Of a stretch of DNA of 64,000 nt, positions 51,445 through 53,576 are shown piece after piece. Numbering within the stretch: the first letter of the stretch is position 1; the number at the start of each line of letters is the position of its first letter. Origin of the DNA: Roseivirga echinicomitans (GTDB lineage: Bacteria > Bacteroidota > Bacteroidia > Cytophagales > Cyclobacteriaceae). Location: contig NZ_LRDB01000008.1 in the NCBI RefSeq assembly GCF_001592935.1, positions 1-64,000 on the forward strand, given 5' to 3'. The notes under the pieces were generated by a model. That model was not told where the DNA came from. It saw only the letters and a program-made list of their open reading frames with translations, and searched no databases. A program made the translations under genes and the position numbers.

Positions 51445-51452
51445 TACCTTTG
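51445..51452 (+). promoter_or_regulatory. SRP RNA promoter -7 box (TACCTTTG)
   Basis: TACCTTTG matches TAnnTTTG and is placed 5-12 bp before the SRP RNA 5' end, the right distance for transcription to start there. Confidence 0.6.
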
Positions 51453-51456
51453 CGCC

Positions 51457-51549
51457 CGGCAGAGGGGTGCGACCAGCTCCCGCTGAACTCCCCCAGGCTG
51501 GGAACAGAGCAAGGGTAAGCGGTTGTAGCGGTGCGACATCCTGATGCCT
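51457..51549 (+). ncRNA. ffs: Signal recognition particle RNA, bacterial small (4.5S) type
   Basis: About 93 nt that fold into one long hairpin: GGTGCGACC on the 5' side and GCGGTGCGACATCC on the 3' side close the stem, with the apical domain GCTGAACTCCCCCAGG ... AGCAAGGGTAAGC and the GGAA-type tetraloop and AGCA asymmetric loop of the SRP54-binding region. It binds Ffh for co-translational targeting. A T-run at 51550 ends transcription. Exact ends are estimated from stem pairing. Confidence 0.85.
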
Positions 51550-51598
51550 TTTTTTATCCCTTCCTTTATCGTATTATTACTTCCTAGACTTTTTGATT

Positions 51599-52393
51599 AT
51601 GTCCGTTTATCTCGCAGAATTTGTGGGCACGGCCATTCTTATCTTTTTCGGGAATGGAACTAACGCTGCCACTACACTTAATTTTTCATACGCTAAAAAT
51701 TCCGGTTGGATTGTAACTACAATTGGCTGGGGATTGGCTGTTACTTTTGGCATCTACGCTGTCGGCCAAATTAGTGGTGCGCACATTAATCCTGCGGTAA
51801 CGCTTTCATTAGCCATGACCGGTGATTTTGAATGGACCTTAGTACCAGGCTATATTATCGCCCAAGTACTTGGCGCTATGGTGGGCGCTTCATTTACATG
51901 GCTACAGTATTTACCTCATTGGGGTAAAACCGAAGATCAAGGCGCCAAACTCGGGATTTTCTGCACAGGCGGAGCGGTAGATCAGAAAAGCGCAAACCTA
52001 CTAAGCGAGGTTTTAGGCACCATGGTGTTGGTTTTCGGCCTACTTATGATTGGTGCCAACCAATTTGTAGAAGGTTTGAACCCCTTGGTTGTTGGTGGCT
52101 TGATCGTTGTTATTGGCATGGCACAAGGAGGTACAACAGGTTATGCAATCAATCCTGCTAGAGATTTTGGGCCAAGACTCGCTCATTTTCTATTGCCCAT
52201 AAAAGGAAAAGGAAGTTCGAAATGGAATTATGCTTGGATTCCCATCATAGGACCAATCATCGGAGGTGGACTTGGGGCAGGGCTCTATCAATTGGCTTTT
52301 AATGGTGAAACAGGAATACTTACATGGGCATGTATTGCAAGTAGTACTTTGATCATTGCTTACGCCATTGCCGAAGAGGCCAAGAAAAAGTAG
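51599..52393 (+). CDS. glpF: Aquaglyceroporin (MIP family)
   Basis: A 264-residue channel with six helices and the two half-helix NPA motifs: GAHINPAVT and GYAINPARDFGPR. The aspartate after the second NPA (NPARD) is the glycerol-facilitator signature. It carries glycerol or other small solutes and water. The start is the ATG at 51599; two codons upstream a TTG is less likely. It is downstream of the SRP RNA gene but with no operon partner. Confidence 0.93.
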   Translation: MSVYLAEFVGTAILIFFGNGTNAATTLNFSYAKNSGWIVTTIGWGLAVTFGIYAVGQISGAHINPAVTLSLAMTGDFEWTLVPGYIIAQVLGAMVGASFTWLQYLPHWGKTEDQGAKLGIFCTGGAVDQKSANLLSEVLGTMVLVFGLLMIGANQFVEGLNPLVVGGLIVVIGMAQGGTTGYAINPARDFGPRLAHFLLPIKGKGSSKWNYAWIPIIGPIIGGGLGAGLYQLAFNGETGILTWACIASSTLIIAYAIAEEAKKK

Positions 52394-52646
52394 TACAACG
52401 GCTTCCCCTCTAATATGTGATGCATGCCCAGATTTCAATGGATTCCTTTTTATAAGAAGAGCCGTACTCTTCTCTCCTTCCCTTCAGTTTTCAGTAGATA
52501 TACCTCCATATCATTCTGCTAGAATTCCCAAGCCCTAGCCTTATTCCCAATTCGGGACTAGCGCAACAATAAAAAGTGGGTTTAAACCTATTGAGGGCAC
52601 TGGCACTCTATTTGGATACTTACTATTACAAGTAAATACCAACATT

Positions 52647-52775
52647 ATGAAAACTGCAACAACACAAACCACCACTGCTAAAAAATCTAATTCTTTAACA
52701 AAATTAGTAGTTGTTGTTTTCGTAACATTCATTGCCTACCAAACGCTTATTTCAGCTACTGGAATTATTGGGTAA
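52647..52775 (+). CDS. Tandem single-pass membrane microprotein A (42 aa)
   Basis: Forty-two residues: a polar T/K/Q-rich N-terminus (MKTATTQTTTAKKSNSLTK), one transmembrane helix from about 20 to 36 (LVVVVFVTFIAYQTLI) and a short tail ATGIIG. It is 36/42 identical to copy B (53033-53161); all six differences are conservative or small. Codons 15-26 are identical at DNA level, too. No start exists earlier in frame that survives in both copies (copy A has stop TAG at 52536). Function unknown: small membrane peptides can be toxins, regulators of transporters, or stress factors. Confidence 0.75.
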   Translation: MKTATTQTTTAKKSNSLTKLVVVVFVTFIAYQTLISATGIIG

Positions 52776-52802
52776 GAAAAGAAACTTAAAAGTAGAGTAA
52801 TC

Positions 52803-52839
52803 AAAAATGCATAGACAATCACTTGTTCTATGCATTTTT
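52803..52839 (+). terminator. Terminator of unit A
   Basis: AAAAATGCATAGA (52803-52815) is perfectly complementary to TCTATGCATTTTT (52827-52839), 11-base loop, 28 bp after the stop of microprotein A. Confidence 0.88.
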
Positions 52840-53032
52840 ATTTTAAGAAAGGTCGAATCACATTCTCCTCTCCTTCAGTGAACCAAACAAGCCTCCATCT
52901 CCTTCAATGATTCCCAAGAGTCATCCTCATTCCCAATTCGGGACTGACGCAGCGATTAAAAGTAGGTTTAAACCCATTCAGGGCACTGGCACTCTATTTG
53001 AATACTTACTATTACACTTAAACACGAATATT

Positions 53033-53161
53033 ATGAAAGCTGCAACGACACAAACTTCTACTTCTAAAAAAACTAATTCTTTAACAAAATTAGTAGTTGT
53101 TGTTTTCGTAATATTCATCGCATACCAAACACTTATTTCTGTAACTGGAATTATTGGATAA
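53033..53161 (+). CDS. Tandem single-pass membrane microprotein B (42 aa)
   Basis: Forty-two residues with the same plan as copy A: MKAATTQTSTSKKTNSLTK, then helix LVVVVFVIFIAYQTLI and tail SVTGIIG. In this copy the frame stays open upstream to an ATG at 52907 (84 residues), but the extra leader part is not conserved as protein in copy A, so the ATG at 53033 is chosen. Its own terminator follows at 53181-53216. Function unknown. Confidence 0.75.
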   Translation: MKAATTQTSTSKKTNSLTKLVVVVFVIFIAYQTLISVTGIIG

Positions 53162-53180
53162 GCCAAAAAGTAGAGTAATT

Positions 53181-53216
53181 AAAAATGCATAGACAACCCA
53201 AGCCGTCTATGCATTT
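53181..53216. terminator. Terminator of unit B, also after ssb on the other strand
   Basis: AAATGCATAGAC (53183-53194) pairs with GTCTATGCATTT (53205-53216). Read on the minus strand it is followed by TTTTTAATT and lies 22 bp past the ssb stop, so it can work in both directions. Confidence 0.85.
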
Positions 53217-53237
53217 CTGTTTTAAAAGAGTACGGTT

Positions 53238-53576
53238 TCATTTTTTACCGCCCATCATCAACAATTCGTTTAAGTTAATTTCTGTCACGAATCGTTTTTC
53301 ACCAGCCGAATTTTCATACGACCTGTGCACCAATTTACCTTCAACACAAACTTCCGCACCTTTCTTTAAATACTCAGCGGCTATCTCGCCTACCTTTCCC
53401 CAGGCAATAATATTATGCCATTGCGTATCTTCAATTTTATCCCCGTCTGCATTTTTGTAAGCGTCTGTAGTGGCCAATGAAAACGTAGTGAGCTTTTTGC
53501 CCGATGTTAAGTTTTTTACTTCTGGATCTTGACCTAATCTTCCGATCAACTGTACACTGTTTCTTAAATTTCTCAT
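53238..53576 (-). CDS. ssb: Single-stranded DNA-binding protein, short form
   Basis: A 112-residue OB-fold protein: NSVQLIGRLGQDPEV, KLTTFSLATTDAYK, TQWHNIIAWGKVGEIAAEYLKKG and GKLVHRSYENSAGEKRFVTEI (in part). It ends ELLMMGGKK right after the OB fold and lacks both the disordered linker and the acidic tip (DDxPF) that recruits repair and replication proteins. It may be an accessory SSB, with the essential copy elsewhere. It is convergent with microprotein unit B. Confidence 0.93.
   Translation of the reverse strand: MRNLRNSVQLIGRLGQDPEVKNLTSGKKLTTFSLATTDAYKNADGDKIEDTQWHNIIAWGKVGEIAAEYLKKGAEVCVEGKLVHRSYENSAGEKRFVTEINLNELLMMGGKK

Follow-up and report, generated by a model that had tools for sequence, protein, structure and literature searches.

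The tandem microprotein units

Between an aquaporin gene and a convergent ssb gene, the genome of Roseivirga echinicomitans carries two tandem units, each encoding a protein of 42 residues. What these genes do and how they are controlled is the question raised by this locus. A first-pass annotation had left three options, namely a stress-induced membrane peptide, a type I toxin and a peptide controlled by an RNA leader; the first fits best with the results below, and the other two lost ground. The window, i.e. the whole stretch of 64,000 nucleotides that was analyzed, contains both units, and their features are collected in Table 1.

The repeated organization was recovered as described earlier, with the two units at 386 bp: a direct repeat of 260 nt (52524-52783 and 52910-53169) shows 85 % identity at an offset of 386, which shifts to 378-379 past position 52783. 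A recount reproduced exactly the mismatch tallies first made by eye, with 14 differences over the 104 positions of the leader (52543-52646) and 15 over the 129 of the gene (52647-52775). Each unit ends with its own terminator-like hairpin (fold z -6.3 and -6.1), followed by a T-rich tail. Both hairpins are missing from the output of a generic terminator scan because the loops of that scan are limited to 3-8 nt and those found here have 10-11 nt. Microprotein 2 also forms the 3' half of a longer ORF of 84 aa that begins ahead of the unit 2 promoter.

Codon comparison of the two copies gave 7 synonymous and 6 nonsynonymous differences (dN 0.067, dS 0.350, dN/dS about 0.19). Copy 2 and its counterpart in R. 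ehrenbergii (G004) differ by 9 synonymous and 3 nonsynonymous codons (dN 0.033, dS 0.457, ratio about 0.07). Protein change is faster in the G001/G014 pair (dN 0.142, dS 0.286), and the G004u2/G006u2 pair has 2 synonymous versus 4 nonsynonymous codons. Since synonymous change is favoured and the hairpins fold far better than shuffled sequences, the 42-codon units look like real genes rather than a mere DNA repeat. The window copies are 86 % alike, and the paired copies in R. ehrenbergii and R. seohaensis (L003/L004) are far more diverged; gene conversion or a fresh duplication in this genome may explain the high likeness.

The protein had been described as a polar head followed by one transmembrane helix; the head is positive and a single helix is predicted (residues 7-38, mean pLDDT 74). 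A net positive charge of the head was found in all 18 sequences. According to the positive-inside rule, the positively charged end of a membrane protein faces the cytoplasm, so the head would be cytoplasmic. The sequence changes fast while size, charge and topology stay constant, which suggests contact with lipid or loose contact with a protein rather than catalysis. Searches of eight proteins against Pfam and NCBIfam gave nothing above cut-off (in each, two proteins had matches below cut-off, with best E values of 0.056 and 0.051). No match above cut-off was obtained in PHROGs (best E 0.029, one member each) or among solved structures in the PDB (best E 0.64), and PADLOC returned no match to defence systems (0/13). 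Judged from titles and abstract openings, we found no literature on these microproteins, on the dyad described below or on its half-sites.

Table 1. Coordinates of the features discussed in the text (window positions unless a locus is named)
Feature	Position	Strand	Basis or remark
Aquaporin (MIP family), upstream flank	51593..52393	+	PF00230, E 4.1e-44
Unit 1 enhancer-like dyad TCCCAATTCGGGA, putative activator site	52545..52557	+	centre about -76 from predicted start
Unit 1 A-tract, near-fixed distance past dyad	52571..52575	+	A-run position across loci
Unit 1 palindrome GGTTTAAACC	52579..52588	.	occurrence count
Unit 1 sigma-54-type -24/-12 element TGGCACTCTATTTGGA	52601..52616	+	GG-N10-GG
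Microprotein 1, 42 aa, cationic head and one helix	52647..52775	+	ORF; dN<dS; predicted helix
Unit 1 terminator-like hairpin	52803..52839	+	fold z -6.31; inverted repeat I6
Unit 2 enhancer-like dyad TCCCAATTCGGGA	52931..52943	+	identical to unit 1 dyad
Unit 2 A-tract	52958..52961	+	A-run position across loci
Unit 2 palindrome GGTTTAAACC	52965..52974	.	occurrence count
Unit 2 sigma-54-type -24/-12 element TGGCACTCTATTTGAA	52987..53002	+	pattern scan, locus comparison
Microprotein 2, 42 aa, 86 % identical to microprotein 1	53033..53161	+	ORF; copy comparison
Unit 2 terminator-like hairpin, between microprotein 2 and convergent ssb	53183..53216	+	fold z -6.12; I7
ssb, downstream flank	53238..53576	-	PF00436, E 7.6e-32
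Putative small RNA, about 110 nt	L059:1345-1452	-	
Putative small RNA, about 110 nt	L060:2748-2857	-	
Putative small RNA, about 110 nt	L066:2068-2190		
Putative small RNA, about 110 nt	L071:2790-2908	-	

The control region

The distribution of mismatches along the conserved upstream region was examined by block. The dyad has 0 mismatches over 13 positions, the spacer 8 over 43, the -24/-12 element 1 over 16 and the segment 52617-52646 has 5 over 30. The dyad has the form TCCCA-N3-TGGGA and lies 43 bp upstream of a sigma-54-type promoter, TGGC-N7-TTG. The block GGCACTGGCACTCTATTTG, present in both units as first reported, includes TGGCAC-N5-TTG, which is a sigma-54 promoter layout; a sigma-54 consensus of TGGCAC-N5-7-TTGCT appears in PMC12316311. 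Neither the dyad nor a sigma-54 reading of this block had figured in the first-pass annotation. The start predicted from the -12 position falls near 52627 and 53013, about 20 nt upstream of the ATG. Because this would leave only some 20 nt of untranslated RNA, the 104-bp "leader" would be mostly control DNA, not RNA, and the better preservation of the dyad and the -24/-12 element compared with the spacer agrees with this reading.

Across 17 microprotein loci the dyad matches 8-10 of the 10 consensus positions, and an A-run begins 13-15 nt past it in 15 of them. The GG-N10 element with its spacing is found in 17/17, TGG and TTG being required by the scan. The -12 position in the window reads GG or GA, not the canonical GC, and a C at -12 occurs in 8 of the 17 loci. 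The palindrome GGTTTAAACC is indeed kept in both units, as the first-pass annotation had seen, at 52579 and 52965; these are its only two occurrences in the 64-kb window (0.13 expected). It is present in only 4 of the 17 loci, namely the two of the window, one of G004 and one of G006; G002 has a variant. By this comparison it is not the general control element.

The promoter-like element and the dyad are thus well supported by comparison, and we regard control of the units by sigma-54 and an enhancer as highly probable.

Counterparts in the genus

A lack of homologues beyond close strains would have counted against the first-pass annotation, and this did not turn out to be the case. A relative or positional counterpart was found in 14 of the 19 Roseivirga genomes. 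In a protein search of 59 relatives, G004 and G006 gave strong matches; the match in G007 was weaker and that in G016 marginal (E 0.155), the latter being taken up because it adjoins ssb. Strict pattern matches in G001, G005, G011, G012 and G014 led to small one-helix genes, and a profile (A2) of the protein-found and pattern-found groups added G002, G008, G010 and G013. The loci of G013 (E 0.0056) and G016 were accepted partly on the ssb neighbour and the site. Profile matches were followed within the genus only, up to E 0.0056, with the addition of L103, which was then rejected. Weak profile matches inspected as further microproteins in G003 and G018 were without the site and were discarded. 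The profile search left five of the 19 genomes without a convincing microprotein; three of the five are at least 98 % complete.

Proteins of the outer loci are strongly diverged, five of them having 10-17 % identity to those of the window. Synteny is kept: an aquaporin and/or ssb gene lies within the fetched stretch in 14/14 genomes, both in eight, with intervening genes in some, and the aquaporin in 10/14. These neighbours were called by eye from motifs and ORF translations, and by Pfam in R. echinicomitans. The outer small genes are taken as positional orthologues, which sequence alone would not reveal. Gene pairs recur in G000, G004 and G006, with a promoter for each gene, and in G007, which has two genes and one composite site. 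A small SRP RNA gene (RF04183) lies just upstream of the aquaporin gene (window positions 51451-51552), and one is also found beside the R. seohaensis locus (L003).

Pattern searches and spacing

The strict composite pattern of dyad and promoter has two matches in the R. echinicomitans genome, both in these units, versus 0 in the control. Over the 19 genomes of the genus, hand-summed totals were 19 matches versus 2 for the reversed-pattern control (strict), 38 versus 3 (relaxed) and 21 versus 1 in a further scan. Beyond the genus, 226 genomes gave a modest excess, with 69 versus 33 (strict) and 46 versus 18 (further scan), again as hand sums. All 12 loci found by protein or profile carry the dyad (at least 8/10) with the promoter, versus 0 of 12,000 dinucleotide shuffles; the dyad consensus, threshold and gap bins were fixed after many loci had been inspected, these 12 included, and the profile that reached G002, G008, G010 and G013 contained five pattern-found proteins. 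The gap between dyad and promoter is 43-44 bp in 11 of the 12 and 61 in G016.

More generally, the gaps fall mainly into two groups, 43-44 and 53-56 bp, separated by about one turn of the helix. Among 88 composite matches in 245 relatives, gaps of 43, 44 or 53-56 occur in 29 of 47 matches with an R-N3-Y dyad centre versus 10 of the 41 without one (Fisher p 0.0006, with bins chosen after part of the data had been seen and related genomes being non-independent). Twenty of the 88 had been fetched as new regions for dyad-like centres, and the test took all 88.

A second operon and a candidate regulon

With the relaxed pattern a third match appears in the R. echinicomitans genome (C49:253523-253591). 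Behind it come a methyltransferase-like gene (Methyltransf_11, E 6e-9) and then msrB (SelR, E 5e-40); msrA (PMSR, E 5e-62), a lipoprotein by eye, is two genes on from msrB. The cluster (L178:13710-16476, on C49) thus reads methyltransferase, msrB, a 158-aa gene and msrA, with the shared dyad. In the 11 methyltransferase-msrB promoters listed, TGGTAGG is systematically found at -24 (11/11). Ten of 18 methyltransferase orthologues of the genus have a dyad of at least 8/10, at a gap of 43 in four and of 53-55 in six, versus 1/5400 in a doublet-shuffled control; the remaining 8 of the 18 are without a dyad at this threshold. Orthologous promoters therefore differ by about one helical turn, as phased enhancer action predicts. 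On sigma-54 control of msr genes in Bacteroidota we found no literature, judged from titles and abstract openings.

Other genes lie behind such sites. Homologues of a lipoprotein, which was not found in R. echinicomitans itself, have a dyad of at least 8/10 in 4 of 11 cases (shuffled 8/3300). Secreted proteins were also found, as well as small one-helix proteins in G027 and G115. In G015, G018, G115 and G146, structured short stretches resembling small RNAs follow the dyad. The four putative small RNAs of Table 1 have the dyad and a sigma-54-type promoter at a gap of 53-56, with fold z -2.6 to -5.1, and gave no Rfam match. Taken together, these sites would tentatively define a new sigma-54 regulon, shared by Roseivirga with some Cyclobacteriaceae-like relatives and marked by TCCCA-N3-TGGGA and served by one activator, with msr repair, orphan microproteins, lipoproteins and small RNAs as members; we hold this extension at somewhat less than even confidence.

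Sigma-54 machinery and candidate activators

The gene for sigma-54, rpoN, was located just past the window end (C8:64026-65486; PF04552, E 2.4e-55 at C8:64035-64511), about 11 kb from the units. The genome encodes 12 strong sigma-54 activators (EBPs; E below 1e-59). Using reciprocal best hits, these 12 were compared with 79 activators from ten hand-picked genomes, five with and five without composite sites. L074, an orphan response regulator that adjoins a photolyase-like gene (by eye), has an orthologue in 5/5 genomes with sites and 2/5 without; L075, L076 and L081 are present in 10/10. This presence pattern is too weak to name an activator. The neighbourhoods of the 12 activators (127 kb) contain one composite site; it belongs to the msrB operon and lies about 12 kb away from one of the activators. 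Six sigma-54 response regulators (L178, L181-L185) adjoin a histidine-kinase-like gene or are one gene away from it, and most of the six lie near FtsX/MacB-like permease genes (by eye, ORF translations).

Alternative explanations

The dyad might instead serve an ordinary repressor or activator as its operator at a housekeeping-sigma promoter, a reading that could accommodate the lack of the canonical -12 C in both window units and the failure of the ortholog comparison to assign any of the 12 EBPs. It is unlikely given the GG-N10 at the expected place in all 17 loci (as required by the scan), the combination of dyad and element absent from all 12,000 shuffles, and gaps that differ by about one helical turn. 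In addition, 52300-53400 contains no strict promoter of the form TTG-N17-21-TAnnTTTG, the motif used for the strict scan, and no sigma-70 match. A better competitor keeps sigma-54 control and changes the signal to a non-oxidative one, e.g. osmotic stress or tension in the membrane, for which the neighbouring aquaporin would be the partner. The recurrence of the aquaporin in the fetched stretch of 10/14 genomes speaks for it, although genes sometimes lie between; the other site of the genome, however, sits on the methyltransferase-msrB operon, and no site precedes the aquaporin gene in the window. We give this signal roughly one chance in four.

The two remaining options of the first-pass annotation fare worse. 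A type I toxin-antitoxin system, i.e. a hydrophobic peptide toxin in tandem copies silenced by antisense RNA, recalls the size, single helix and tandem arrangement of these genes, and a TAATTTTG box is present on the minus strand inside both of them (52706 and 53092). These boxes are without a strict upstream partner, and the locus has no strict minus-strand promoter from which an antisense RNA could be expected. Genus-wide synteny and the lack of a match to toxin or defence families also argue against a toxin, for which size and hydrophobicity are the only positive evidence, and we consider it very improbable. Still less probable is a leader-controlled regulatory peptide or riboswitch-like RNA leader. 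This would account for the 104 bp being kept about as well as the gene, but conservation is concentrated in the dyad and the -24/-12 element, the copies share no RNA fold (z 0.07 versus shuffles for one, a marginal -1.96 for the other), and there is no Rfam match at the locus.

Proposed mechanism and comparison with known systems

The explanation we favour, and consider probable, is that each unit is transcribed on its own from a sigma-54 promoter and encodes a stress-induced microprotein of the inner membrane, with an activator shared with the msrB operon. In the scheme that we infer, a putative EBP would bind the dyad TCCCA-N3-TGGGA near -76, on a fixed helix face and with the A-tract alongside. 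Sensing an envelope signal, the bound activator would reach the sigma-54 polymerase over a distance of 43 bp, or of one further turn, and open the RNA polymerase-sigma-54 held at TGGCAC-N5-TTG. Transcription would start near 52627 or 53013 and stop at the hairpin. The same activator would switch on the methyltransferase-msrB operon, with msrA close by, together with the microproteins; with this common activator, the signal would probably be oxidative or other envelope damage. For oxidative damage of the envelope in particular, we consider the chances evenly balanced. The microprotein would insert by its single helix, with the cationic head on the cytoplasmic side, and may adjust a membrane complex or steady the membrane. 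Since the sigma-54-type switch is apparently shared with genes repairing oxidised proteins, the tandem microproteins probably belong to an envelope-stress response that has not been described before.

Several known systems offer likenesses. For Vibrio LuxO-Qrr promoters, PMC10162802 describes sigma-54 control with a 13-bp 5-3-5 dyad upstream of TGGCA-N7-TGC. The layout of this UAS (TTGCAWWWTGCAA), as given there, is the same as in Roseivirga, where putative small RNAs also lie behind the dyad. The dyad sequence differs and the Roseivirga genes are mainly protein-coding; because of the different dyad we do not file the system under LuxO-Qrr.

In the enterobacterial phage-shock response (PspF-sigma-54), an activator switches on small inner-membrane proteins under envelope stress. 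The likeness drawn here is one of logic, and we do not file the Roseivirga system under phage shock either; in Roseivirga the site is shared by msrB and lipoproteins. MsrPQ/HprRS is a stress-controlled repair of methionine sulfoxide in the envelope. The Roseivirga Msr proteins likewise appear to lie outside the cytoplasm (judged by eye from N-termini), but they are of MsrA/MsrB type and their control appears to be sigma-54. E. coli has stress-induced single-helix small membrane proteins resembling these in size, topology and orphan sequence; no homology to them was found, and those of Roseivirga differ by a cationic head and sigma-54-type control.

Significance

Little is known about sigma-54 regulons in Bacteroidota, and a function has yet to be assigned to most microproteins of bacteria. 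The main interest of this locus is that a family of orphan microproteins, along with the regulon to which it probably belongs, is exposed by promoter and position. The enhancer motif names a co-regulated msrB operon, predicts a stress and finds counterparts missed by protein search alone. If the regulon is real, its logic would make it the Bacteroidota equivalent of phage shock and Qrr control, with a promoter much more strongly conserved than the protein under its control. Fast-evolving microproteins would then be traceable by their promoter and position.
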